A DNA stretch of 64,000 bases from Eubacteriales Family XIII. Incertae Sedis bacterium (GTDB lineage: Bacteria; Bacillota; Clostridia; Peptostreptococcales; Anaerovoracaceae): the NCBI GenBank assembly GCA_031261345.1, contig JAISKC010000055.1:1-64000 (forward strand), given 5' to 3'. Position 1 is the first letter of the stretch. Every line of letters starts with the position of its first letter. A model generated the notes under the pieces. The model saw only the letters and a list, made by a program, of their open reading frames with translations, did no database searches and had not been told where the DNA came from. Made by a program: the position numbers and the translations under genes. Below, one piece after another: positions 1,006-63,111 of this stretch.

Positions 1006-1161
1006 TCAATCCTTTAACATAGAAATTGGCACTATATATACGCCATCTTTCTGCCTGTATGTAATACCAACTCCGACAATTACTACTAAACAGCGTGGTT
1101 CTCTACCACCCCTTTGTATTTTTCTATCTATGATGCGCTCTTTATAATTACTTTTATCCAT
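1006..1161 (-). pseudogene. C-terminal remnant of a DUF4143-type ATPase
   Basis: This 51-codon frame ends in VVIVGVGITYRQKDGVYIV followed by PISMLKD. That matches the C-terminus of AAA+/DUF4143 ATPases; compare the full-length protein at 21458-22732, which ends AIITGLGN...ADGIHVIPLHSIKP. The P-loop and central domains are missing. The sequence in front of it still holds a tandem repeat (1229-1290) like those in front of intact ATPase genes in this window. I infer an internal deletion that joined the 5' control region to the last ~30 codons. It might still be translated from the ATG at 1161, but there is no evidence of function. Confidence 0.6.
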
Positions 1162-1228: not shown

Positions 1229-1290
1229 CTATTGCGTAAAAATCGAAATTTCTATTGCGTGAAAAACGAAAATTCTACTACGCATAATGC
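1229..1290. repeat. 23-bp tandem repeat, about 2.7 copies
   Basis: Copies begin at 1229, 1252 and (degenerate) 1275. The common part is CTATTGCGTRAAAA, followed by a CGAAA element. It lies upstream of the ATPase remnant, in the position expected for its promoter or operator. Confidence 0.7.
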
Positions 1291-5552: not shown

Positions 5553-6965
5553 TTATCTCTTTTCTTTGATGACCTGCACACCCTGCGGCGTGTCCTTTAA
5601 CGTGATTCCTTTTTCCTTGAGAATGTCCCTGATTTCGTCGGCTCTGGCCCAGTCCTTGTTCTCCCGCGCCTTCGCTCTGTCCTCAATCAAGGCGGCTACC
5701 TCGGTATCCTCGCCCTCAGGCTCCACCTCCTCTTCTTTTTCAAGAAGGCCGAGCACATTTGCGAGCTCGGTGAGAAGCGCCAAAGCACCGGTGGCGTATT
5801 CCTTTGAAACGCCCTCGGTTATTCTCAAATTTATCTCGGAAATCAACTCAAAGATGGCGGCAATCGCGTCCGCCGTGTTGAGATCGTCATCCATTACGGC
5901 AATGAATTTGTCCTTGTACTTTTGAAGTTCTGTGAGCTTCAACTCATCCTCTGCTGAAGCAGGCACGTCCGATTTGGCAATCAGGTGCTCAAGGCTATCC
6001 TTCGCATTGTACATACGTTCAAGGCTGCTCAAAGAAGCCTCGAGCAAATCGTCGCTATAGTTGATAGGACTCCTGTAATGCCCCGAAAGCAGGAAAAGCC
6101 TGACGACCTCGCCGTCATATTTTTGAAGTATCTCCCTGACAGTGAAGAAATTGCCTTTGGATTTTGACATCTTCTCCTTGTCGATTGTGATATATCCGTT
6201 ATGCATCCAGTAATTCGCAAAGGGCTTGCCACTCGCAGCCTCCGACTGTGCGATTTCGTTTTCATGGTGCGGAAAAACCAAGTCCTGACCACCGGCGTGA
6301 AGATCGATAGTCTCGTCCAAAAACCTTCTGGACATTGCACTGCACTCGATATGCCAACCTGGCCTACCCTTCCCCCAAGGAGAATCCCACGACAAATCCT
6401 CTCCTTCCTTTGACTTCTTCCAAAGTGCAAAGTCGAGCGGGTTTTTCTTTCTCTCATCAATGCCAATCCTTGCTCCGGACTTGAGCTCATCGAGATTTTG
6501 CCCCGAAAGTTTGCCGTAGTGCTCAAAGCTATCCGTATCAAAATAGACATCGCCATCAATTTCGTAGGCATTGCCCTTTTCGATTAGCGTGGATACCAAA
6601 TCTATTATCGCATCGATATTCTCCGAAACCTTAGGATGATGTGTGGCCTTTCTGACGTTCAGAGACTTGGCATCCTTGAAATACTCGCCAATGTATTTTT
6701 CACTGAGCTCGCTTGAATGAATCCCCTCCTCAGCGGCTCTACTTATGATCTTGTCATCGACATCCGTGAAATTTTGAACGAAATTCACCTTCTCACCGCG
6801 GTATTCCAAATACCGCCTCAGCGTATCGAAGACGACAAAAGGTCTGGCATTGCCAAGATGAAAATAATTGTAAACAGTCGGACCGCAAACATAGATGTTG
6901 AATTCACCTTCCCTGATGGGCTTGAGTTCCTCTTTGCTTCTCGTCATCGTATTGTAAATTTTCAT
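5553..6965 (-). CDS. cysS: Cysteinyl-tRNA synthetase
   Basis: 470 residues, class I. The HIGH-type motif is YFHLGNARPFVVFD, zinc ligands are in CGPTVY, ECSAMS and HHENE, and the KMSKS loop is KEKMSKSKGN. The C-terminal DALR-type helical domain follows, ending GVQVIKEKR. It charges tRNA-Cys. Length is normal for the family. It is probably the first gene of the minus-strand block ending with sigH. No T-box leader is visible in the ~60 bp before the terminator of the upstream gene. Confidence 0.96.
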   Translation of the reverse strand: MKIYNTMTRSKEELKPIREGEFNIYVCGPTVYNYFHLGNARPFVVFDTLRRYLEYRGEKVNFVQNFTDVDDKIISRAAEEGIHSSELSEKYIGEYFKDAKSLNVRKATHHPKVSENIDAIIDLVSTLIEKGNAYEIDGDVYFDTDSFEHYGKLSGQNLDELKSGARIGIDERKKNPLDFALWKKSKEGEDLSWDSPWGKGRPGWHIECSAMSRRFLDETIDLHAGGQDLVFPHHENEIAQSEAASGKPFANYWMHNGYITIDKEKMSKSKGNFFTVREILQKYDGEVVRLFLLSGHYRSPINYSDDLLEASLSSLERMYNAKDSLEHLIAKSDVPASAEDELKLTELQKYKDKFIAVMDDDLNTADAIAAIFELISEINLRITEGVSKEYATGALALLTELANVLGLLEKEEEVEPEGEDTEVAALIEDRAKARENKDWARADEIRDILKEKGITLKDTPQGVQVIKEKR

Positions 6966-21457: not shown

Positions 21458-22732
21458 TTATGGTTTAATTGAGTGTAAAGGTATGACGTGAATCCCATCG
21501 GCCCTTGTGAAAGCTTTGTTTCCGAGCCCCGTTATGATTGCGAGACACCCGGGATTTCCCATTTTCTCGGTATCAATAGTCTTTGAAAACCTTAGCAATG
21601 TGTCTGCTGCCGCATCAATAACTTGTGCTGTATCTCCAAGTTTCACCTCGAAGGCACCCCAACGCCCATCATTTCCAAGATATATTTGATCAACTTCGAG
21701 ACCTTTGGAGTCGTGATATTGCAAGATTTCACCGCCAAGTATTGAAGCATATGCAGACATATTATGAAATACAAGCGACTCAAACAAAAATCCTAAGTAC
21801 CTCAAATCAGTCTTCAACTGTTCGTGTGTTGCCCCGAGCAAAGCACACGCCAAAGACGGTTCACAATAATGCAGTTTTGCAGCTTTCCTAATGGAATAGC
21901 GAGCCCTTAGATGTGGCATCCAACTTGCCTGCCTTTCGAAAACTCCTATTCTCTCCAAAGCACCAAGATATTCCGAAACTGTCGAAGCCTTGGGCTCTCT
22001 GTCAAGAAATGAGGCCGCCTGCAAAGCCATCGAATCCTTCGTTGCATATGTCGCAACATTCTTTGCGAGAACATTCATTAAGGCTCTGACTCCAATTGGA
22101 TCCCTTTGTATGTCATCAACCTCTGAAATATCTACATTCACAATCTGATCTATATAACCTTGGATATTCATTTGAGCATCTTCCGTTGGATCCCCATAAA
22201 ATCCTGGCCAGTATCCATGCCTTATTTCGTCAATTACATCATCAATAGTCTTTGCCTTATAAACACGAGGAGATATTTTATTCCCTCCAACAATTCCAGA
22301 AAGCGATATGGGATTTTCAATCGCATTTTCGTGTTGCTGAATCTCAAATATTGACAGCGTTCGCATTTTCCGCGACAAAATTCTTCCGGCTCCGCTGTGT
22401 AGTGTGGAGCTTTTCTTGGGAGTAGATGAACCTGTCAGCAAAAACTGTCCCTTATCCTGCCTCTCATCAATCTCATGGCGTACTAGATTCCAAATTTTCG
22501 GATATACCTGCCACTCATCAATAAGTCGAGGGGTTTCGCCCACGAGCAAGAGTTTTGGTGCTGTTTCAATATACAATATTGCATCATCATCTATGTCCAA
22601 GCTAATGCTGCTTTTCGCTATTCTTTTCGTAGAGCTCGTCTTGCCACAGGCTTTTGGTCCCTTGACCAATACACCCCCGCTAATCCTAAGGCTCTCCTCC
22701 AAAACATCATCTATCATTCGTGATATGTACAT
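21458..22732 (-). CDS. AAA ATPase with C-terminal DUF4143 nuclease-like domain
   Basis: 424 residues. The P-loop is LVKGPKACGKTSS, Walker B is PRLIDEWQ, and FLLTGSS is the sensor. A winged-helix-like middle is followed by DUF4143 with the PD-(D/E)xK-like pattern LEVDQIYLGNDGRWGAFEVK. The protein ends in IHVIPLHSIKP. This family is found in many copies in gut anaerobes and archaea; its role is unknown, with mobile or toxin-like behaviour suggested by its spread. It lies between proS and the bacteriocin cluster, a probable insertion. GAGGGAGG precedes the ATG, and three 23-bp repeats stand 46 bp upstream of the start. Confidence 0.88.
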   Translation of the reverse strand: MYISRMIDDVLEESLRISGGVLVKGPKACGKTSSTKRIAKSSISLDIDDDAILYIETAPKLLLVGETPRLIDEWQVYPKIWNLVRHEIDERQDKGQFLLTGSSTPKKSSTLHSGAGRILSRKMRTLSIFEIQQHENAIENPISLSGIVGGNKISPRVYKAKTIDDVIDEIRHGYWPGFYGDPTEDAQMNIQGYIDQIVNVDISEVDDIQRDPIGVRALMNVLAKNVATYATKDSMALQAASFLDREPKASTVSEYLGALERIGVFERQASWMPHLRARYSIRKAAKLHYCEPSLACALLGATHEQLKTDLRYLGFLFESLVFHNMSAYASILGGEILQYHDSKGLEVDQIYLGNDGRWGAFEVKLGDTAQVIDAAADTLLRFSKTIDTEKMGNPGCLAIITGLGNKAFTRADGIHVIPLHSIKP

Positions 22733-22778
22733 TAAATTTATCCTCCCTCATGTGTTATATTATCTCATTGTAGCACAC

Positions 22779-22844
22779 AAGGGAAGAAATAGTACTTTTC
22801 CAAGGGAAGAAAAAGTACTTTTTTAAGGGAAGAAATATTCTCTC
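22779..22844. repeat. 23-bp tandem repeat, three copies, before the DUF4143 gene
   Basis: Copies start at 22779, 22802 and 22825; all begin AAGGGAAGAAA and the first two also share AGTACTTTT. They fill the gap between the proS stop codon and the promoter region of the ATPase, a position suited to an operator for that gene. Two other ATPase loci in the window have equivalent repeats of different sequence. Confidence 0.8.
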
Positions 22845-24626
22845 TTACAGCAGCGTCCGCAGGGGGATACTCGGGTTTGAGCCTTCTTCGGCTATCAGTT
22901 TGCGAGCCTTTTCTATGGCTTCTTCCGCCGTGATTTCCACCCTGTCCTGCTCTCTTCTGAGCTTGTATTCCACTATGCCCTCTGAGGCCCTCTTGCCCAC
23001 GGTGATTCTGATAGGTATGCCTATGACGTCGGCGTCCTTGAACTTGACTCCGGCGCGCTCATCCCTGTCGTCCAAAAGGACTTCCGTGCCCGTGCTGAGA
23101 AGGTCTGTATAGATCTTTTCAGCGAGGGCCGCCTGTTCCTCGTCCGAGTTTTTCACTATCGTGATGATGACGTGATATGGAGCCACCGCAAGAGGCCAGA
23201 TGATGCCCTCGTCATCGTGATACTGCTCGACCACCGCCGCCATAGTCCTTGTGATACCGATGCCGTAGCAACCCATGAACATCAGGTGTTCCTGCATATT
23301 CTCGTCCTTGTATACGCAGTTCATCGCCTTGCTGTATTTCGTTCCGAGGTCGAATATCTGACCGACCTCAATGCCGCGCGTCTTAGAAAGCGGAGCTCCG
23401 CAATGAGGACAGGCGTCGCCCTCCCCTACGAGCTTCAGGTCAGTAATGAGGTCTGCAGTGTAATCCCTGCCATAATTGACATTTTCCATATGTGTGTCGA
23501 ACTTGTTGGCACCTGCTAGCAGATTTTTCAGCCCGGGAATTTCGCTGTCCACGATAATCTTGCAGTTTTTCAGCCCAACCGGACCTGTGAAACCACCGAC
23601 CGCTCCTGTGAGCTCTCCCATTACCGCTTCATCGGCAAACTCTATCATATGCTCTGCTATGCCGAGCGCATTGACGATTTTGATCATGTTCAGCTGGCGG
23701 TCGCCACGCACGAAGGCCGCGACGTATTCCTTGACCCTGTATTTGATTTTGCCGTCCTCTTCATACTCGTCATAGACTTGGAAGAGCAGCGCCTTCAGAG
23801 TCTTTTCCGCTGTGAGGCCGACGAACTCCGCGACGTCATCTATCGTCTTGCAATTTGGCGTATAGACTTCTTTGGTCTCCAAAAGTGGCTCGTCCACGGG
23901 AGGAGCATCGACTCCGGCAGCGTTTTCAGCGGTCGAACCATAGCCGCAAACATCGCAGTATACGAGGTCGCTCTCGCCGTAATCGGAAAATGCCGAGAAC
24001 TCGTGCGAGCCCGTGCCGCCGATAGCACCGTTGTCAGCCTCGACTATTCTGTATTTGAGTCCGCATCTGTCGAAGACCTTCTCGTATGCCACATACATAT
24101 CCTGGTAGGACTTCTTGAAGCTCTCCTCGTCTCTGTCAAACGAGTAGGCGTCCTTCATGACAAATTCTCTGGCCCTCATCAGACCAAATCTCGGCCTCGC
24201 CTCGTCCCTGAATTTCGTCTGTATATGGTAGAGATTGAGAGGCAATTTTTTGTAAGACGATACGTCATTTCGGACGATGTCAGTAATGAGTTCCTCGTGT
24301 GTGGGTCCGAGCAGGAAATCCCTATCGTGCCTGTCCTTGACACGCCAGAGCTCGGGGCCCATCGCGGACCATCTGCCTGTTTCTTCCCAAAGTTCTGCCG
24401 GCATCAGATGCGTCATGTGGAGTTCCTGCGCGCCCGCGGCGTCCATCTCCTGACGAACGATCTCGCCTATTTTTCTGACCGTCCTGTAGCCTATCGGCAT
24501 GAATGTATATACGCCCGAAACGACCTTCTTCATCATTCCGCCGCGAAGCAACCAGATATGACTGGGGATTTCCGCCTCGCCCGGCACTTCCCTGAGTGTA
24601 TGTAGGTGCATTTTTGATAATCTCAT
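22845..24626 (-). CDS. proS: Prolyl-tRNA synthetase (bacterial type with editing insert)
   Basis: 593 residues, class II. Motif 1 lies around TFMPIGYRTVRKIGEIVRQE, motif 2 in FRDEARPRFGLMRAREFVMK, and motif 3 in GCYGIGITRTMAAVVEQ. The INS editing domain (~220-400) lies between motifs 2 and 3, and an anticodon-binding domain closes the protein. It charges tRNA-Pro and hydrolyses Ala-tRNA-Pro. Length is slightly above the usual 570. Between motif 2 and the INS domain a C-x2-C (CDVCGYG) appears. It lies in the ispDF-proS order common in Clostridia. No T-box is visible upstream. Confidence 0.96.
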   Translation of the reverse strand: MRLSKMHLHTLREVPGEAEIPSHIWLLRGGMMKKVVSGVYTFMPIGYRTVRKIGEIVRQEMDAAGAQELHMTHLMPAELWEETGRWSAMGPELWRVKDRHDRDFLLGPTHEELITDIVRNDVSSYKKLPLNLYHIQTKFRDEARPRFGLMRAREFVMKDAYSFDRDEESFKKSYQDMYVAYEKVFDRCGLKYRIVEADNGAIGGTGSHEFSAFSDYGESDLVYCDVCGYGSTAENAAGVDAPPVDEPLLETKEVYTPNCKTIDDVAEFVGLTAEKTLKALLFQVYDEYEEDGKIKYRVKEYVAAFVRGDRQLNMIKIVNALGIAEHMIEFADEAVMGELTGAVGGFTGPVGLKNCKIIVDSEIPGLKNLLAGANKFDTHMENVNYGRDYTADLITDLKLVGEGDACPHCGAPLSKTRGIEVGQIFDLGTKYSKAMNCVYKDENMQEHLMFMGCYGIGITRTMAAVVEQYHDDEGIIWPLAVAPYHVIITIVKNSDEEQAALAEKIYTDLLSTGTEVLLDDRDERAGVKFKDADVIGIPIRITVGKRASEGIVEYKLRREQDRVEITAEEAIEKARKLIAEEGSNPSIPLRTLL

Positions 24627-51562: not shown

Positions 51563-52651
51563 CTAAATGTCCATTTTCGCTAGCATTGATCTCATTATTG
51601 GTATAGTGAAGGAAAATTTTCCCCTACCTATTGGTGTTATTACCCCTTGCTCAACCAACCTGCGCCTATAAGTCCCTACATAATTAACAGAAACACCAAG
51701 CCTACGTGCAATATCCGAAGCCAAACTGTATTTTTCGTCCTCAACCATGGCCAGAAGAAATTTCTTATCCATTTCAGATAATGAATACATAGTTGAATCC
51801 AGTATCATGCTCTCCAAGTCAACATATGATGAATCTATACCAGACTTTGCGTCAGCGACAGAAATCACATCACTATCAGATTGATTGAATGTATGATATC
51901 CAATAAGTTGTATTATAAAAGGAAATCCCCCCGTGCTATCCACGACCAATGCTAATGCTGCTTGATCAATCTCGCGACCTGAAAGCTCTACGGTTTTCTT
52001 TATCACTGCACGAGCTTCAGAATTGCTCAGTGGATCAAGTTTTCGCCTGAAAGCTCTGCGCAAAAATGATATGGAATCGTCCTGAAACATTTGCAGAACC
52101 TTATCTGGAAGACCTGCCATGAGCAATGCAACATTTCTTTTTTCCATTATGTATACTTGAAATGTAGACACAAATTCTATCATCTCAGGTACACTCGCAC
52201 TCACCTCATCAATTGTGAACAATAAACCAACATTCATTTCCTCGAGAAGATTGAGTGTCTTTTCAATATGGGCGCGCCATCCAAGATTATCGTGCTTGAT
52301 AATTTCTCGTGTGATACCAAATCCCGCACCCTGCAAACCTGTCATTTGACTCTTTTGTTTTCGTGGAAGCAGTTCAGCAGTATGAATGTCAATTTGATCC
52401 TTTAGGCTTTCGAGCATGCCCGTAACCGCAGGTACGTGAACGGCAATCCAACCTCTCTCCTGCGCCTCATTTGCAATCTTGGCAAGCAAAACGGTCTTTC
52501 CGCTTCCTCTCGGGCCTGTGAATATCGTGATACGATTTGGGTCTCCGACACCGGCATCAAGTCCGCGAAGAACATCGTCTATCAAGTTGTTTCGTCCTGC
52601 AAGTATCGGAGGTTCATTCCCGAAAACCGGAGTAAATGGATTTTTGTACAT
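51563..52651 (-). CDS. AAA ATPase of the ORC/Cdc6-like family with C-terminal winged helix
   Basis: 362 residues. It has Walker A TGPRGSGKTVLL, Walker B GLLFTIDEVSA, sensor NVALLMAGLP and an arginine-rich FLRRAFRRKLDPLS. The C-terminal ~70 residues form a winged helix (YSLASDIARRLGVSVNYVGTY). This architecture occurs in ORC/Cdc6-like and STAND-type ATPases that are widespread and of unknown function in bacteria. The gene stands alone, with AGGAAGGT before the ATG and three 19-bp repeats beginning 17 bp upstream of the start codon. It should be compared with the DUF4143 ATPase at 21458-22732. Confidence 0.85.
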   Translation of the reverse strand: MYKNPFTPVFGNEPPILAGRNNLIDDVLRGLDAGVGDPNRITIFTGPRGSGKTVLLAKIANEAQERGWIAVHVPAVTGMLESLKDQIDIHTAELLPRKQKSQMTGLQGAGFGITREIIKHDNLGWRAHIEKTLNLLEEMNVGLLFTIDEVSASVPEMIEFVSTFQVYIMEKRNVALLMAGLPDKVLQMFQDDSISFLRRAFRRKLDPLSNSEARAVIKKTVELSGREIDQAALALVVDSTGGFPFIIQLIGYHTFNQSDSDVISVADAKSGIDSSYVDLESMILDSTMYSLSEMDKKFLLAMVEDEKYSLASDIARRLGVSVNYVGTYRRRLVEQGVITPIGRGKFSFTIPIMRSMLAKMDI

Positions 52652-52668: not shown

Positions 52669-52716
52669 CTTTGTATGTTTTTTATTTCTTTGTATTCTTT
52701 TTATTTCTTTGTATTT
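52669..52716. repeat. 19-bp tandem repeat, three copies, before the ORC-like ATPase gene
   Basis: CTTTGTA begins at 52669, 52688 and 52707; the intervening TTTTTATTT segments are nearly identical. The repeats lie directly before the ribosome binding site, where they overlap the probable promoter. Confidence 0.75.
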
Positions 52717-55055: not shown

Positions 55056-56999
55056 CTACTTCACTTTCCCACTGGTCTTGGTCTTGCTCCACGCACTGTA
55101 ATACTTCACGCCAGATACCGTCTTGTAGAAACGTACCTGCACTTGATAAGCCTTGCCCTTTTTTAGACTCTTAGCAGTATAAGCCTTGCTCGTCCCTGCT
55201 ACGGTCTTGGTCGTCCAATTGCTCGCACCCTTGACCCTATACCTCACCTCATATTTGGTAGTTCCGGACACCTTTCCCCAAGTGATTTTGAGCTGTTTCT
55301 TTGCAGGCGTAACCTTGGAAACAGACGCGGTCTTCGGCACAATCTTAAACGAAACAGTCTTTGTTCCCGTATAGTTCCCCTTGCCAGTAATGGTAATATT
55401 AGCCTTACCAACAGCCGTTCTGGTCGAATGCTTGACCGTGTAATGTGTATTCAGCGTGAGCGTAGTGCTACCATGCTTGACAGTAAGAGTCGGTTTCTTA
55501 ACCTTTCCGGTATAGGTCTGGTTCGCAATTTTTGCGACTGTAGTCTCAGAAATACTATGCTCTTTTTCTTTCCAATGTGCGTAGAATGTGATGTTATTTG
55601 AAATTTTCGTAGAGGCTGAAATCTTTGTACCACCGGACTTGGCAGTCCACCACCCATCAAATATGTACCCGTTACGAGTCGTTGTCGGCAACGTGCCTAT
55701 GGAATCTCCAGTTTTGACCGTTTTGTTTGAGACCGCACTGCCGCCATTTGCATCAAAAGTTACTGTATATTGTAATAGCGGGTCGGTGTTTATATATGCT
55801 TTGCCTCCATCTGTTGGTATGGAGTCTGGCAAATCTGTAATCGAAGAAAAGTCAGATATAACTTGATTTGAATTGTTTGTTATCACTACCTCTTTGTTTC
55901 CCTGAACAAGTGCACCGTTGTCGTTGAAATGACTAAAAAAACCGCCACCCGCTATTGTGATGCTTGAAGTATCAAAGGAACCTGCTGGTAAACTTGTTAA
56001 CGCACCGCCACAGTTGAAACCCCTAAAGAAACCGTCACCCACTGTTGTAATGCCTGATGTATCAAATGACCCGACTAACAAACTTGTTAGCAAACCGTAG
56101 TAATTGAAATAACTGAAGAAATCGCCACCCACAGTAGTTATGTCTGAAATATCAAATGAACCCTCTGGCAAACTTGTTAGCGAACCTCTTTCGTTGAAAC
56201 TATTGAAGAACCACCCTTCAGATGTTGTTATGTTTGATATATCAAATGAGCCTGCTGGCAAGCTTGTTAGAGCACCACCAGAGTTAAAGAAACTGAAGAA
56301 GCACCCTTCATATGTTGTTATGCTTGATGTATCAAATGAACCCTCTGGCAAACTTGTTAGTTTACCACTAGAGTTGAAACAAAAGAAAAAACCGCCACCC
56401 ACTGTTGTGATGCTTGATATATCAAATGAACCTACTGGTAAACTTGTTAGCTCGCCACCACGGTTAAAAAAATAGAAGAAGTCGCTACCCACAGTAGTGA
56501 TGTTTGAAGTATCAAATGAATCCTCTGGCAAACTTGTTAGCGAACCATAATAGTTGAAACAAAAGAAGAATCTATCACCCGCAGTATTGCCAGTTATGTC
56601 TGATGTAAACTTACCCATTTCAGGCATTTCTGTTAATGCACAATTTACGTTCTTGACAAGTGGCTCATCCGTCCAATTCCAACCCCTAAACGTACCATTC
56701 TCACTTTCCGTAATGGTAACTGTAGTACCATTTGAAACATCGATTTCAATACTAGTGCTTGACGCCAACTCTGCGGCTACTATATCTCCACCATTTACTA
56801 TTATTGGTGTCGTCCATTCGTTATATATGGTTGCCGTTCCGGAGTCTGTGAATGTGAGCGTTATTATATCTGCTACCCCATCATCAATTACATCTGCATA
56901 GGCGTTTTCAGGTGCAACCACAAAAACACTAGTCGCCACCAACGCAACAGTCAGCACCAATGCCAACAACCGTCTTCTTAAATTCAAATTCTTCGTCAT
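55056..56999 (-). CDS. Secreted repeat protein (BspA/DUF285-like), 7 repeats
   Basis: 647 residues. The shared signal peptide precedes ~100 residues with ITLTFTDSGTATIYNEWTTP, then about 7 units of 30 residues (LTSLPxGSFDTSxITTVGxx, then FFxxFNxxG) like BspA/DUF285 leucine-rich surface repeats. An InlB-type B-repeat (VTFDANGGSAVSNKTVKTGD, ending ITFYAHWKE), one YDG/MBG-like unit and the common FnIII-like end follow. BspA-like proteins bind host proteins and other bacteria. The gene is one of four tandem paralogues, with AGGAGAG and ATG preserved. Confidence 0.82.
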   Translation of the reverse strand: MTKNLNLRRRLLALVLTVALVATSVFVVAPENAYADVIDDGVADIITLTFTDSGTATIYNEWTTPIIVNGGDIVAAELASSTSIEIDVSNGTTVTITESENGTFRGWNWTDEPLVKNVNCALTEMPEMGKFTSDITGNTAGDRFFFCFNYYGSLTSLPEDSFDTSNITTVGSDFFYFFNRGGELTSLPVGSFDISSITTVGGGFFFCFNSSGKLTSLPEGSFDTSSITTYEGCFFSFFNSGGALTSLPAGSFDISNITTSEGWFFNSFNERGSLTSLPEGSFDISDITTVGGDFFSYFNYYGLLTSLLVGSFDTSGITTVGDGFFRGFNCGGALTSLPAGSFDTSSITIAGGGFFSHFNDNGALVQGNKEVVITNNSNQVISDFSSITDLPDSIPTDGGKAYINTDPLLQYTVTFDANGGSAVSNKTVKTGDSIGTLPTTTRNGYIFDGWWTAKSGGTKISASTKISNNITFYAHWKEKEHSISETTVAKIANQTYTGKVKKPTLTVKHGSTTLTLNTHYTVKHSTRTAVGKANITITGKGNYTGTKTVSFKIVPKTASVSKVTPAKKQLKITWGKVSGTTKYEVRYRVKGASNWTTKTVAGTSKAYTAKSLKKGKAYQVQVRFYKTVSGVKYYSAWSKTKTSGKVK

Positions 57000-57031
57000 T
57001 CTCTCTCTCCTAACATTCCTTATCGATACCC

Positions 57032-57060
57032 GTCATTGCGAGCAAAGCGAAGCAATCCAG
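57032..57060. repeat. Palindromic-repeat arm between surface-protein genes
   Basis: GTCATTGCGAGCAAAGCGAA then GCAATCCAG; same family and position as the arms at 55017 and 60441. Confidence 0.75.
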
Positions 57061-57068
57061 CCCTTATC

Positions 57069-60000
57069 CTACTTCACTTTCCCACTAGTCTTGGTCTTGC
57101 TCCACGCACTGTAATATTTCACGCCCGACACTGTCTTGTAAGACCGCACCTGCACTTGATAGGTCTTGCCCTTCTTCAGGATCTTGGCCTTATAGGCTTT
57201 GCTCGTCCCTGCCACAGTCTTCGTTGTCCACTTGCTTGTACCCTTGACCCGATACCTCACCTCGTATTTGGTAGTTCCGGACACCTTGCCCCAAGTGATT
57301 TTGAGTTGCTTCTTTGCAGGCGTAACCTTTGAAATAGACGTAGCCTTCGGCACAATTTTAAACGAAACAGTCTTTGTCCCAGTATAGTTCCCCTTGCCAG
57401 TAATAGTAATAGTGGCATTGCCAACATCTGTTCTGATAGAATGCTTGACCGTGTAATGTGTATTCAGCTTGAGCGTCACGCTACCGTGCTTGACAGTAAG
57501 GGTCGGCTTCTTAGCCTTGCCATCGTTCACCTGATCCTTGATGACCGCAACAATGAACACGCTGACATTCGCAGGCACAATTTTGAAAGTGGCTGACGCA
57601 GTTCCCGTATAGTTTCCATTGCCAGTAATAGTAACTTTTGCTGTGCCAGCGTTGATGTTATTGCTATAGGAAGCAGTATAATCCGTGCCCGATACAAGAG
57701 TTTTGCTACCATCTTTGACGGTAAGTGTCGGCTTCTTCGCTTTGCCGGTATATGTCTGATTCGGAATTTTTGCGATTATGACATCAGAAATACTATTTTC
57801 TTTTTCCGACCAATGTGCATAAAAAGTCGCCTTTGCAGTAATCTTCGTGTTTTCGCTAATCTTTGTGCCTCCTATCGCCGAAGTATACCAGCCATCAAGG
57901 GTGTAACCACTGCGTGTTGACACAGGTAAAACTCCAAGAGCATCACCGAAATTCACTGTCCAATTTTCAATCGCACTTCCTCCCAATGAATCAAATTTCA
58001 CAAGGAATTGATTGGCTATCCAGTGCGCATAATAAGTTGTATTCGCAGTTACCGTTGTTTCCTCGCTTATCTTTGTACCACCGACGGATTCTGTATACCA
58101 ACCGTCAAAGGCGTAGCCAGTACGAGTCGTTGTCGGCAATGTGCCAATAGAAACTCCAGAGTTAACCGCTTTGCTAGAGACCGGACTGCCGCCATTCGCA
58201 TCAAAAGTTACTGTATGCGATGAATATGATGGATCGGTGTTTATATATGCTATACCTCCTGCTATTGGTATGGAGGCTGGCAAATCGGTACCCGAGGAAA
58301 AGTTGGATATAACTTGATTTGAATTGTTTGTTATTACCACCCCTTTGTTTCCTTGAACAAGAGCACCGTAGTAGTTGAAATTACTGAAAAAATCGTCACC
58401 CGCTATTGTGATACCTGATGTGTCAAATGAACCTGCTGGCAAACTTGTTAGTTTACTGTACCAATTGAAATAACTGAAAAAATCGTTGCCCACTGTTGTG
58501 ATGCCTGATGTATCAAATGAACCTACTGGTAAACTTGTTAGGTTACTGTGATAATTAAAAGAACGGAAAAAATCGTCACCCACTGCTGTGATACCTGATG
58601 TATCAAATGAACATGATGGCAAACTTGTTAGTGAACCATAAGAATTGAAATTATCGAAAAATTCGCCACCCGCAGTAGCTATGCTCGATGTATCAAATGA
58701 ACCCTCTGGCAAACTTGTTAGCGAACCACCACTGTTGAAAGAACTGAAGAACACGCCATCCGCTGTTGTGATGTTCGAAGTATCAAAGGAACCTTCTGGT
58801 AAACTTGTTAGCGAACCATCATTGTTGAACCAACCGAAGAAATCGACACTCGCTGTTGTGATGCTTGATGTATCAAATGAACCTGTTGGCAAACTTGTTA
58901 GCGCACCACCACTGTTGAAATAACGAAAAAAACCGGGACCCATTGTTGTGATGCTTGATGTATCAAAGGAACCTTCTGGTAAACTTGTTAGAGCACCACT
59001 AGAGTTGAACCCACCGAAAAAATAGAAACCCGCTGTTGTGATGCCTGATATATCAAATGAACCCGCTGGTAAACTTGTTAGCGAACCTACAGCGTTGAAC
59101 CCATCGAAGAAATGGGCACCCACTGTCGTGATGCTTGATGTATCAAAGGAACCTGCTGGCAAACTTGTTAGCGCACCACCATCGTTGAACTCATAAAAGA
59201 AGTGGGGACCCGCTGTTGTGATGCTTGATGTATCAAAAGAATCTTCTGGTAAACTTGTGAGCGAACCACCATCTTTCCAACCACCGTTGAACCTATCGAA
59301 GAAACCGTACATCGCTGTTGTGATGCTCGATGTATCAAAAGAGCCCTCTGGCAAACTTGTTAGTGAACCACCATCAGCATTGAAATTACTAAAAAACGAT
59401 CCACCCACTGTTGTGATGCTCGATGTATCGAATGAACCTGCTGGTAAACTTGTTAGAGCACCACTAGAGTTGAACCCACCGAAGAAATAGACACCCGCTG
59501 TTGTGATGCCTGATGTATCAAATGAACCCGCCGGTAAACTTGTTAGCGAACCACCAGCGTTGAAATCACTAAAAAAATATTCGCCCACTGTTGTGATGCT
59601 CGATGTATCAAAAGAGCCCTCTGGCAAACTTGTTAGCGAACCACCAGCATTGAAGCTACCGAAGAAACTGGCACCCGCAGTAGCTATGCTTGATGTATCA
59701 AATGAACCCTCTGGCAAACTTATTAGTGCACCACCAGAATTGAAACTATCGAAGAAACTGCCACTCGCAGTAGCTATGCTCGATGTATCAAAAGAGCCTT
59801 CTGGCAAACTTGTTAGCGAACCACCAAAATTGAAACTATCGAAGAAACTGCCACCCACAGTAGTTATGCTCGATGTATCAAATGAATCCTCTGGCAAACT
59901 TGTTAGCGAACCAGAATAGTTGAAACAAAAGAAGAATCTATGTCCCACAGTATTGCCAGCTATGTCTGATGTAAACTTACTTATTTCAGGCATTTCTGTT

Positions 60001-60371
60001 AATGCACAATTTACGTTTTTCACAAGTGGCTCTTCACTCCAATGCCAATTCCTAAACACATCATTCGCACTTTCTGTAATGGTGACAGCAGTACCATTTG
60101 AGACAGCGACTTCAATATTGCCCCCTGACGCCAACTCTACATTATCTTTATCTCCACCATTCACAATTATTGGTGTCGTCCATTTGTTTTGTATAGTTGC
60201 CGTTCCGGAGTCTGTGAAAGTGAGCGTTATTACATCCGCTACACCATCATCAACATCCTCACCTTCTGCAAACGCATTCGTAGGCACAATCGCGAAAACA
60301 CTCGTTACTACCAACGCGACAGTTAGCACCAACGCCAACAGACGTCTTCTCAAATCCAAACCTTTTGTCAT
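57069..60371 (-). CDS. Large secreted repeat protein (BspA/DUF285-like), 17 repeats
   Basis: 1100 residues from ATG 60371; a reading from 60464 runs through the upstream palindromic repeat and is rejected. The signal peptide and N-terminal domain are as in the neighbours. About 17 units of 30 residues follow, the most in the array; DNA between units differs by few changes at exact 90-bp spacing. Two InlB-type B-repeats (SHTVTFDANGGSPVSSKAVN and FLVKFDSLGGSAIENWTVNF), two YDG/MBG-like units and the common FnIII-like end complete it. Repeat number probably changes by recombination. One unit has an inserted WKDGG-type segment near residue 370. Confidence 0.82.
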   Translation of the reverse strand: MTKGLDLRRRLLALVLTVALVVTSVFAIVPTNAFAEGEDVDDGVADVITLTFTDSGTATIQNKWTTPIIVNGGDKDNVELASGGNIEVAVSNGTAVTITESANDVFRNWHWSEEPLVKNVNCALTEMPEISKFTSDIAGNTVGHRFFFCFNYSGSLTSLPEDSFDTSSITTVGGSFFDSFNFGGSLTSLPEGSFDTSSIATASGSFFDSFNSGGALISLPEGSFDTSSIATAGASFFGSFNAGGSLTSLPEGSFDTSSITTVGEYFFSDFNAGGSLTSLPAGSFDTSGITTAGVYFFGGFNSSGALTSLPAGSFDTSSITTVGGSFFSNFNADGGSLTSLPEGSFDTSSITTAMYGFFDRFNGGWKDGGSLTSLPEDSFDTSSITTAGPHFFYEFNDGGALTSLPAGSFDTSSITTVGAHFFDGFNAVGSLTSLPAGSFDISGITTAGFYFFGGFNSSGALTSLPEGSFDTSSITTMGPGFFRYFNSGGALTSLPTGSFDTSSITTASVDFFGWFNNDGSLTSLPEGSFDTSNITTADGVFFSSFNSGGSLTSLPEGSFDTSSIATAGGEFFDNFNSYGSLTSLPSCSFDTSGITAVGDDFFRSFNYHSNLTSLPVGSFDTSGITTVGNDFFSYFNWYSKLTSLPAGSFDTSGITIAGDDFFSNFNYYGALVQGNKGVVITNNSNQVISNFSSGTDLPASIPIAGGIAYINTDPSYSSHTVTFDANGGSPVSSKAVNSGVSIGTLPTTTRTGYAFDGWYTESVGGTKISEETTVTANTTYYAHWIANQFLVKFDSLGGSAIENWTVNFGDALGVLPVSTRSGYTLDGWYTSAIGGTKISENTKITAKATFYAHWSEKENSISDVIIAKIPNQTYTGKAKKPTLTVKDGSKTLVSGTDYTASYSNNINAGTAKVTITGNGNYTGTASATFKIVPANVSVFIVAVIKDQVNDGKAKKPTLTVKHGSVTLKLNTHYTVKHSIRTDVGNATITITGKGNYTGTKTVSFKIVPKATSISKVTPAKKQLKITWGKVSGTTKYEVRYRVKGTSKWTTKTVAGTSKAYKAKILKKGKTYQVQVRSYKTVSGVKYYSAWSKTKTSGKVK

Positions 60372-60440
60372 TTTCTCTCTCCTAACATTCCTTATCAATA
60401 CTCGCCACTCCGGTCTAAACCCCCGTTCATAGAGAGCAAC

Positions 60441-60470
60441 GCGAACGTGAGCGTAGCGAAGCAATCTAGC
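60441..60470. repeat. Palindromic-repeat arm between surface-protein genes
   Basis: A diverged arm, GCGAACGTGAGCGTAGCGAA followed by GCAATCTAGC, at the same place as the arms at 55017 and 57032. Confidence 0.65.
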
Positions 60471-60480
60471 CCTTATAGAC

Positions 60481-63111
60481 CTACTTCACTTTTCCACTCA
60501 CCTTAGTCTTACTCCACGCACTGTAATACTTCACGCCCGACACCGTCTTATATGACCGCACCTGCACCTGATACGCCTTGCCCTTCTTCAGATTCTTCGC
60601 AGTATAAGCCTTACTCGTCCCAGCCACAGTCTTTGCCTTCCACTTGCTCGCACCCTTGACTCGATACCTCACCTCATACTTGGTAGTCCCAGAAACCTTG
60701 CCCCAAGTGATTTTGAGCTGCTTCTTTGTAGGCGTGACCTTTGAAACAGACGTAGCCTTGGGCACAATCTTGAACGAAACAGTCTTTGTTCCCGTATAGT
60801 TTCCCTTGCCAGTAATAGTAATGGTAGCCGTGCCAACCGACTTATTATTCGAATGTTTGACCATGTAATGTGTATTCAGCTTGAGCGTCGTGCTGCCATG
60901 CTTGACAGCCAATATCGGCGATTTAGCTTTGCCATTATTCACCTGATCCTTGATGGTTGCAACGCTGAACACACTAGCATTAGCTGGCACGATTTTGAAA
61001 GTAACAGATTTAGTTCCGGTATAGTTCCCCTTACCAGTAATAGTAACTGTCGCTGTGCCAGCATTGATGTTGTTGTTATATGAAACAGTATAATCCGTGC
61101 CAGAAACGAGAGTTTTGCTGCCATCCTTGACGGTAAGAGCCGGCTTCTTTGCTTTGGTGTCATAGGTCTGATCCTCGATTTTTGCGATATTAGCCTCAGA
61201 AAGACTCTTTTCATTTTCTTTCCAATGTGCGTAGAATGTGATGTCATTTAAAATTTTCGTAGAGGATGAAATCTTTATGCCATCGGACTTGGCAGTCCAC
61301 CACCCAGCAAATGTATACCCCGCAAGAGTAGTTGTTGGCAATGTACCTATGGAATATCCGGCTTTGACCGTTTTACTAGAGGTCGCACTGCCGCCATTTG
61401 CATCAAAAGTTACTGTATATTGTAATAGCGGGTCGGTGTTTATATATGCTTTGCCTCCATCTGTTGGTATGGAGTCTGGCAAATCTGTTCCAAAGGAAAA
61501 TTCAGATATGTCTTGATTTGAATTGTTTGTTATTACCACACCCTTGTTTCCTTGAACGAGCGAACCGTAGTAATTGAAATACCTAAAGAAATCACCACCC
61601 GCTATTGTGATGCTTGAAGTATCAAAGGAACCTGCTGGTAAACTTGTTAACGCACCGCCACGGTTGAAACCCCAAAAGAAAAGGCCACCCGCTGTTGTGA
61701 TGCTTGAAATATCAAAGGACCCTTCTGGTAAACTTGTTAGCGAACCCGAATTGACGTTAACCCCACTAAAGAATGTGTCACCGACAGTGGTAATCTTTGA
61801 TGTGTCAAACGAACCTAATGGCAAGCTTGTGAGCGAGCCATTACTGTTGAACCCACTAAAGAATGCGCCACCGACAGTGGTAATCTTTGACGTGTCAAAC
61901 GAACCTAATGGCAAGCTTGTGAGCGAACCATTATTGTTGAACCCATAAAAGAAGTTGTCACCCGTAGTGGTGATACTTGAAATATCAAATGAACCTGCTG
62001 GCAAACTCGTTAACGAACCATTGTAGTTGAAATAAGAGAAGAAGTAGTCACCAATAGTAATGATACTTGAAGTATCGAAAGAACCATCTGGTAAACTTGT
62101 GAGCGAACTATAGTTGCAGTTAAATCCATAAAAGAAGCAGTCACCCGTAGTGGTGATACTTGAAATATCAAATGAACCTTCTGGCAAACTTGTTAGCGAG
62201 CCAGCGAGATTGAAAGAAGCGAAGAAGTAGCCACTCGCAGTAGTGATGCCCGAAGTATCAAATGAACCATCTGGCAAGCTTGTTAGTGAGCCATGGTTGT
62301 TAAATTCATAGAAAAAGTTATAATCCACAGTAACTATGCTTGAAGTATCAAAGGAACCTGCTGGCAAACTTGTAAGCGCACCATAGAAATTGAAGTAAGC
62401 GAAGAACAATGAACCCACAGTAGTGATGTTTGAAGTATCAAAGGAACCTGCTGGCAAACTTGTTAGCAAACCATCCCTGTTGAAAGCACTAAAGAACCCA
62501 CCACCCACAGTAGTGATTTTTGATGTATCAAATGAACCTTCCGGCAAACTTGTTAGTAAGCCACCTGCGTTGAAACCACTAAAGAAGCTGCTTCCCACAT
62601 TAGTGATACTTGACGTATCAAATGAACCTTCTGGCAAACTTGTTAGCGCACCACTAGAGTTGAAATCACCGAAGAACCATGCGCCCGCAATAGTGCCGGC
62701 TATGTCTGATGTAAACTTACTCATTTCTGGAATCTCTGTTATTGCACAATTTACGTTCTTGACAAGTGGCTCATCCGTAAAATCCCATTTCCTGAATGTA
62801 TCATTCTCACTTTCTGTAATGGTGACAATACTATTATTTGAAACAGCGACATAAATAACCGAGTATCGCGACACCGCTACATTATCTTTATCTCCACCAT
62901 TTACTATTATTGGTGTCGTCCATTCGTTATATATGGTTGCCGTTCCAGAGTCTGTGAATTTGAGCGTTATCACATCTGCTACACCATCATCAACTGTCTC
63001 ACCTTCTGCAAACGCATTAGTAGGTGCAATCGCGAAAACACTCGTCGCCACCAACGCGACAGTCAACACCATTGCCAAAAACCGTCTTCTCAAATCCAAA
63101 TTCTTTGTCAT
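60481..63111 (-). CDS. Secreted repeat protein (BspA/DUF285-like), 12 repeats
   Basis: 876 residues from ATG 63111 behind GGGAGAG. The same architecture: signal peptide, N-terminal domain, about 12 units of 30 residues, one InlB-type B-repeat (VTFDANGGSATSSKTVKAGY), two YDG/MBG-like units (SEANIAKIEDQTYDTKAKKP and SVATIKDQVNNGKAKSP) and the common FnIII-like end (ending WSKTKVSGKVK). Two successive units (residues ~410-470, SFDTSKITTVG) are near-identical in DNA. It is first in the minus-strand array and follows a leader with a terminator-like hairpin. Confidence 0.82.
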   Translation of the reverse strand: MTKNLDLRRRFLAMVLTVALVATSVFAIAPTNAFAEGETVDDGVADVITLKFTDSGTATIYNEWTTPIIVNGGDKDNVAVSRYSVIYVAVSNNSIVTITESENDTFRKWDFTDEPLVKNVNCAITEIPEMSKFTSDIAGTIAGAWFFGDFNSSGALTSLPEGSFDTSSITNVGSSFFSGFNAGGLLTSLPEGSFDTSKITTVGGGFFSAFNRDGLLTSLPAGSFDTSNITTVGSLFFAYFNFYGALTSLPAGSFDTSSIVTVDYNFFYEFNNHGSLTSLPDGSFDTSGITTASGYFFASFNLAGSLTSLPEGSFDISSITTTGDCFFYGFNCNYSSLTSLPDGSFDTSSIITIGDYFFSYFNYNGSLTSLPAGSFDISSITTTGDNFFYGFNNNGSLTSLPLGSFDTSKITTVGGAFFSGFNSNGSLTSLPLGSFDTSKITTVGDTFFSGVNVNSGSLTSLPEGSFDISSITTAGGLFFWGFNRGGALTSLPAGSFDTSSITIAGGDFFRYFNYYGSLVQGNKGVVITNNSNQDISEFSFGTDLPDSIPTDGGKAYINTDPLLQYTVTFDANGGSATSSKTVKAGYSIGTLPTTTLAGYTFAGWWTAKSDGIKISSSTKILNDITFYAHWKENEKSLSEANIAKIEDQTYDTKAKKPALTVKDGSKTLVSGTDYTVSYNNNINAGTATVTITGKGNYTGTKSVTFKIVPANASVFSVATIKDQVNNGKAKSPILAVKHGSTTLKLNTHYMVKHSNNKSVGTATITITGKGNYTGTKTVSFKIVPKATSVSKVTPTKKQLKITWGKVSGTTKYEVRYRVKGASKWKAKTVAGTSKAYTAKNLKKGKAYQVQVRSYKTVSGVKYYSAWSKTKVSGKVK

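Follow-up and report, generated by a model that had tools for sequence, protein, structure and literature searches.

Private direct repeats upstream of a PDC-S01-type ATPase-nuclease gene and their probable role as its own operators

A short tandem array in front of a DUF4143 ATPase gene raises the question of whether such ATPases each read a repeat of their own and, if so, to what end. The locus lies in the window, the 64,000-nucleotide stretch analyzed here (positions 1 to 64,000 of contig JAISKC010000055.1, assembly GCA_031261345.1) from an Eubacteriales Family XIII. Incertae Sedis bacterium. The encoded protein is of the PDC-S01 type, an ATPase fused to a PD-(D/E)XK domain (COG1373/DUF4143). 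PDC-S01 is a PADLOC defence candidate and reportedly the fourth most common prokaryotic defence hit, with ∼39,000 genes distributed over bacteria and archaea and several transfers between the two domains (PMC12988326), and it is also catalogued in a further study (PMC13356809). Its antiviral role is a possibility only, with no validation in the open-licence literature searched. The same search yielded no reports of promoter repeats, winged-helix DNA recognition, or private specificities for PDC-S01.

The repeat array and the gene behind it

An earlier note, made from the sequence alone, had described three 23-bp units filling the gap between proS and the ATPase promoter, an observation that is confirmed and turns out to reflect a wider rule. 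The array (22779 to 22844, minus strand; unit on the strand of the gene, GGAAAAGTACTATTTCTTCCCTT) is located between the proS stop codon (22845 to 22847) and the candidate -10 elements of the ATPase gene, GATAAT (22759 to 22764) and TACAAT (22767 to 22772), which lie just downstream on the minus strand (22759 to 22772) and whose position is inferred from the sequence. TRF reports a 23-bp tandem array at 22778 to 22837 with 2.6 copies and 89% matches. Inspection by eye shows the core AAGGGAAGAAA three times, at 22779, 22802, and 22825, with a spacing of exactly 23 bp. The second half of the unit, AGTACTTTT, is present only in copies 1 and 2, so the array comprises two full units and half of a third. 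With a score of 31.6, it exceeds the best of 2,000 dinucleotide shuffles of the 112-bp gap (14.4), none of which equals it; together with the control genes considered below, this rules out a chance origin of the repeats. In a search of the whole 2.42-Mb genome at ≤3 mismatches, the own promoter is the sole site of the window unit. A regulon beyond the own gene is rejected in the absence of any further site at this threshold. The units of other paralogs match almost only their own loci, in a search confined to 0.52 Mb of the window's genome and the archaeal loci. Specific sites at the own promoter and nowhere else are thus established genome-wide for the window gene and in part for its paralogs.

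Domain, profile, and model evidence identify the gene itself (21458 to 22732, minus strand, with its ATG at 22732) as that of an ATPase-nuclease of 424 amino acids. The protein consists of an AAA+ domain (residues 1 to 175), a linker, a winged helix (∼209 to 290), and a PD-(D/E)XK-like domain (∼291 to 424). It matches DUF4143 (1.5e-21), AAA_14 (1.9e-11), and the PADLOC PDC-S01 profile (8.3e-52); all 19 members match this last profile, as do all clades tested, and the window protein and its relatives thereby fit the PDC-S01 definition. The AlphaFold2 model (pLDDT 92; 89 for the model of a clade B protein) shows the winged helix with helices at 212 to 224 and 232 to 243, a recognition helix at 249 to 261, and a wing at ∼269 to 285. 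On the basis of covariation and the model, the part of the gene coding for residues 209 to 290 (21863 to 22108, minus strand) is the predicted repeat reader. The ATPase residues G25, G30, K31, D72, and E73 are retained, as are E346, D348, E362, and K364 of the PD-(D/E)XK-like domain, and the Walker and nuclease residues show 98 to 100% conservation in ∼154 clade A proteins. A search by sequence found no solved structure of a relative. The nearest folds are those of Cdc6/Orc1 and the archaeal ATPases Sso1545 and PABY2304, followed by STAND proteins such as CED-4 and plant NLRs, and the AAA+ domain plus winged helix also aligns with antiviral EfAvs5. The alignments to STAND-type ATPases, made by fold alone, reach Z scores of 10 to 14.6 at 10 to 16% identity and an rmsd of 4 to 5 Å. 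Card1 and Cdn1, which are PD-(D/E)XK effectors, are also among the Foldseek matches.

Repeats had further been noted before two other ATPase loci of the window, and both are real. The 23-bp repeats of a DUF4143 remnant (1229 to 1290, minus strand) are equaled in 0/1000 shuffles and have a unit unlike that of the window gene; the remnant (1006 to 1161, minus strand), recognized by phmmer matches in two parts, is a clade A gene reduced to 51 amino acids, in which the N terminus is fused to the C terminus and the middle is deleted. The AT-rich repeats at 52669 to 52716 (minus strand), with a 19-bp spacing and 4/1000 shuffles, are weaker. They precede an ORC-like ATPase of 362 amino acids (51563 to 52651, minus strand), which belongs to a different ATPase family and has a C-terminal winged helix. 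This family is small, and all seven clear members found (L332 to L336, L339, and L340 among the loci) have AT-rich upstream repeats of their own with periods of 19 to 39 bp, without a control comparison; that ORC-like ATPases form a second family with private operators is conceivable. Separately, TRF finds long arrays of 90-bp repeats at 55923 to 62676, which probably lie within the coding sequence of repeat-rich surface proteins.

Repeats across the DUF4143 family

The window's genome contains 25 DUF4143 matches, 22 of them full length, and a reading of the upstream DNA shows that ∼15 of these 22 genes are preceded by two to four direct repeats whose sequence differs from gene to gene. In a comparison of 228 nonredundant DUF4143 genes with 327 control genes, a repeat score of ≥20 is reached by 107 of the former (47%) and 10 of the latter (3%), and the interpretation in the earlier note thereby passes the enrichment test that the note itself had set. 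Among genes scoring ≥16, periods of 23 bp (89 genes) and 32 to 33 bp (23 genes) predominate, with few others, while the periods of control genes are scattered. One of the few high-scoring control genes, which encodes a 508-amino-acid protein outside the DUF4143 set (L118, 10776 to 12299, minus strand), is preceded by a near-perfect pair of 24-bp direct repeats (CAACGTAAAACAATAGC...).

The repeat period follows the protein clade on the family tree. In clade A, which is characterized by the motif GPKWCGKT and includes the window gene, 23 bp is the best period in 132/142 genes and in 26/27 held-out genes, giving a total of 158/169; a clear 23-bp array is absent from ∼10 genes of the clade. These loci were collected with a clade A query, gene starts were set by a simple rule, and the relatives stem mostly from metagenome assemblies. 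The GPRQSGKS group has a period of 22 to 23 bp, and the sister clade B (GARQVGKTW) has one of 32 to 33 bp. Clades C and E, judged by the family tree and the upstream scan, are as a rule without direct repeats, which excludes repeats as a universal DUF4143 feature and indicates that they are not required for the function of the whole family. The claim that every ATPase locus of this kind carries three repeats of its own is therefore valid for some subfamilies but not for all DUF4143 genes. Some clade C genes of the GIRRCGKS type (for example, L019, L108, and L110) show weaker repeats ∼39 to 42 bp apart or palindromes, perhaps a third spacing class. Two ATPase genes of the PDC-S27 type (L024 and L025) carry long inverted repeats upstream, two copies each, rather than direct repeats.

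Clade A genes with the 23-bp period are found in Clostridia, Bacteroidota, Treponema, Bifidobacterium, Gardnerella, Fibrobacter, and archaea, and one archaeal genome of the Methanomassiliicoccaceae contains >20 clade A genes in 1.6 Mb. The size of the arrays in this clade reaches ∼9 copies. The ∼nine copies upstream of one gene (L103, ending at 6766 of G014 C17) are near perfect, which suggests a recently expanded or homogenized array.

For relatives from different orders, for example, G011 and G060 with 93% protein identity, the shared DNA starts at the first repeat and ends ∼17 bp beyond the stop codon; the flanks are unrelated. The distribution is patchy, with close relatives in bacteria and archaea. 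No recurrent partner gene was found, as each neighbor family is limited to at most 5 of the 83 loci, and clade A relatives are rare on plasmids (9/72,556 records) and phages (4/50,697 records). From the conserved block, the lack of a recurring neighbor, and this rarity, it follows that repeats and gene appear to pass as a pair, both in descent and in transfer; it is likely, by inference, that a unit of ∼1.4 kb comprising both moves between lineages. An addiction-type (toxin-antitoxin) module, one of the possibilities raised in the earlier note, requires a conserved partner gene and is less supported, as no such gene recurs. A plasmid or phage origin is rejected, given the few records with relatives and the location of the loci on chromosomal contigs.

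Covariation with the protein and register with the promoter

The frame of the clade A unit is fairly constant (GCCAAA-nnnC-GGAAnnAAAA), with variable positions. More similar proteins have more similar units (Mantel rho of 0.46; 0/200 permutations), and this correlation is strongest for residues 256 to 285, i.e., the end of the recognition helix and the wing. Background-corrected mutual information ranks residue 250, the second in the recognition helix, at the top (unit position 1, z of 10.6; position 0, z of 8.4). When the influence of shared ancestry is limited by the use of 64 disjoint, divergence-corrected sister pairs, the associations of residue 250 with positions 22, 0, and 1 rank 1st, 4th, and 6th among 7,981 residue-base associations. 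Lys or Arg at residue 250 goes with G at position 0, and Asp or Glu goes with G at position 1, i.e., C on the opposite strand, a pattern that is chemically sensible, with no binding data at hand. In held-out genes, Asp or Glu at residue 250 is accompanied by G1 in 9/9 cases, versus 4/15 for other residues (p=6e-4), and the pairing of Lys or Arg with G0 shows only a trend in this small set. A code linking residue 280 to position 14 was strong in the first set and failed to reproduce in the held-out genes. The counts are modest, with an Neff of ∼65 for clade A, and clade B sequences are too few for such an analysis (Neff of 26).

The second test set by the earlier note, covariation of repeat and protein, is thus passed as well, most strongly at a residue of the recognition helix and with one rule that holds in new genes. 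Since the letters of the unit change together with one amino acid, each clade A protein very probably binds its own repeats. This evidence is indirect, resting on covariation alone without binding data. Enrichment and covariation together lend good support to the proposal that the ATPase recognizes its own repeat, with autoregulation as the natural consequence.

The array also tends to stand in register with the promoter. In bacterial clade A promoters, the start of the -35 hexamer usually falls within the last unit, near its position -2, or roughly one period later, at +19 to +21. Among the 65 promoters with a good sigma-70 match, 53 have the start of the -35 element in only 4 of the 23 possible phases, and the mean -35/-10 match is 8.1, compared to 6.6 for shuffled sequences. 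Because the sequence of the unit is similar to a -35 box (TTGCCA), the inside-unit class is partly built in; the downstream class is not. The last repeat ends just upstream of the -35 element in about half of the well-predicted promoters, and the other half have the hexamer inside it. In some genes, the -10 box lies 5 to 8 nucleotides before the ATG, suggesting leaderless messages. At five loci (L006, L008, L013, L016, and L020), a -10-like box lies only 3 to 7 nucleotides before the start codon, which likewise suggests leaderless bacterial messages.

Autoregulation, rival readings, and known systems

The reading preferred here, with a probability of about 0.72, is that of a self-contained, horizontally moving, and autoregulated (probably autorepressed) ATPase-nuclease whose private operators insulate it from its paralogs; no binding, expression, or activity data are available. 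The repeats would form the private operator array of the gene, along which neighboring molecules would occupy neighboring units through their winged helices, at intervals of 23 bp or roughly two turns of the helix. Since the -35 element is either overlapped or bordered by the array, the bound protein should act as a repressor and keep its own level low. How tightly it binds would depend on the oligomerization and ATP state of the AAA+ domain, and the protein would act as the effector through its conserved nuclease site. With every paralog confined to its own unit, a genome could hold up to ∼25 copies without cross-regulation. Direct binding, the preference for repression over activation, and a derepression or nuclease activation at the time of infection are inferences only; an antiviral role and any role in anchoring or sensing are possible and unproven.

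An unlikely alternative takes the array as a storage or sensing site, on which an NLR-like (STAND-like) effector is parked in an inactive form. Loss of DNA contact would free the protein to oligomerize and cut, and gene regulation would be a side effect. The alignment of AAA+ domain and winged helix with Sso1545, PABY2304, CED-4, plant NLRs, and EfAvs5 speaks for this view, as do the joint conservation of ATPase and nuclease sites, the restriction of the window protein's specific genomic sites to its own gene, and arrays of up to ∼9 copies, which exceed the need of simple repression. However, the -35 register favors ordinary transcription control, clades C and E manage without a direct-repeat array, the resemblance of the folds is modest at the identity and rmsd given above, and there is no evidence of nuclease inhibition by DNA contact. 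In its boldest form, which is equally improbable, the array would be the sensor and safety catch of cross-domain NLR-like ATPase-nucleases, with dozens of orthogonal, DNA-anchored immune effectors per genome; if this were true, each new paralog would evolve a new array-reading specificity. Activation of the own promoter, a positive feedback switch that is low at rest and amplifies itself once the ATPase is activated, is also doubtful. The half of the promoters with the last repeat just upstream of the -35 element show the position expected of an activator, and MalT and IniR are ATPases that activate transcription (PMC5760070). The other half argue against activation, as a protein bound there would block the polymerase, and the good -35/-10 matches suggest that no activator is necessary.

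Two further readings concern DNA movement and replication. The repeats could be the ends or target sites of a mobile unit, with the nuclease acting in its movement, in line with the sharply bounded DNA shared across orders and the patchy distribution over bacteria and archaea. This is very unlikely: the repeats lie on one side only, with no unit copy downstream (the best match within 300 bp of the gene has ≥7/23 mismatches in 129/129 genes, like coding DNA), the window repeat has no second copy in the genome, the -35 element is in register with the repeats, and the conserved boundaries may merely mark the limit of selection. A transposable element would have matching terminal repeats at both ends, which the 129 genes lack. 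The earlier note's suggestion of a mobile unit holds only in that repeats and gene appear to travel between lineages, and its addiction-type variant has less support. All but excluded is an iteron system, a relic of a plasmid origin in which an Orc1/Cdc6-like protein starts replication at the repeats. Origin-DNA-bound Cdc6/Orc1 is indeed among the nearest folds, and phased direct repeats resemble plasmid iterons, but the genes are chromosomal and number up to ∼25 per genome, relatives on plasmids are as rare as stated above, and the nuclease site is conserved.

Under the preferred reading of private operators, studies of the PDC-S01 mechanism gain a starting point from the repeats: for each protein the DNA ligand is defined, a contact residue is predicted, and a recognition code is available in part. 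Nearly every gene of the main branch of this very common family, whose virus-fighting role is suspected and not proven, has its own 23-letter repeats. Private operators suggest how dozens of paralogs coexist, and the pairs of repeat and protein would provide regulators that are naturally orthogonal, for bacteria and archaea alike.

Among known systems, the proposed regulation comes closest to that by RptR, the restriction-modification-proximal transcriptional regulator, which binds three direct repeats in front of its own gene and thereby represses a defence promoter (PMC12255303). The likeness lies in a repressor acting on three direct repeats in its own promoter. RptR, however, is a 9-kDa dimer whose 9-bp repeats have a palindromic core that its homologs share, whereas in the window family DNA reading is assigned to a domain of the effector itself, the repeats recur every 23 or 32 to 33 bp, and the sequence differs for each gene. 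STAND and Orc1/Cdc6-type ATPases (Sso1545, PABY2304, MalT, IniR, CED-4, and NLRs) share the layout of AAA+ domain plus winged helix. MalT and IniR bind DNA through a separate C-terminal LuxR-type domain and regulate other operons, in contrast to the window family, in which the winged helix beside the ATPase apparently reads the sites of its own gene. Plasmid iterons likewise are phased direct repeats beside the gene of a presumed binding protein; the window family differs from them in its chromosomal location, many unlike copies, overlap with the promoter, nuclease domain, and few plasmid copies.
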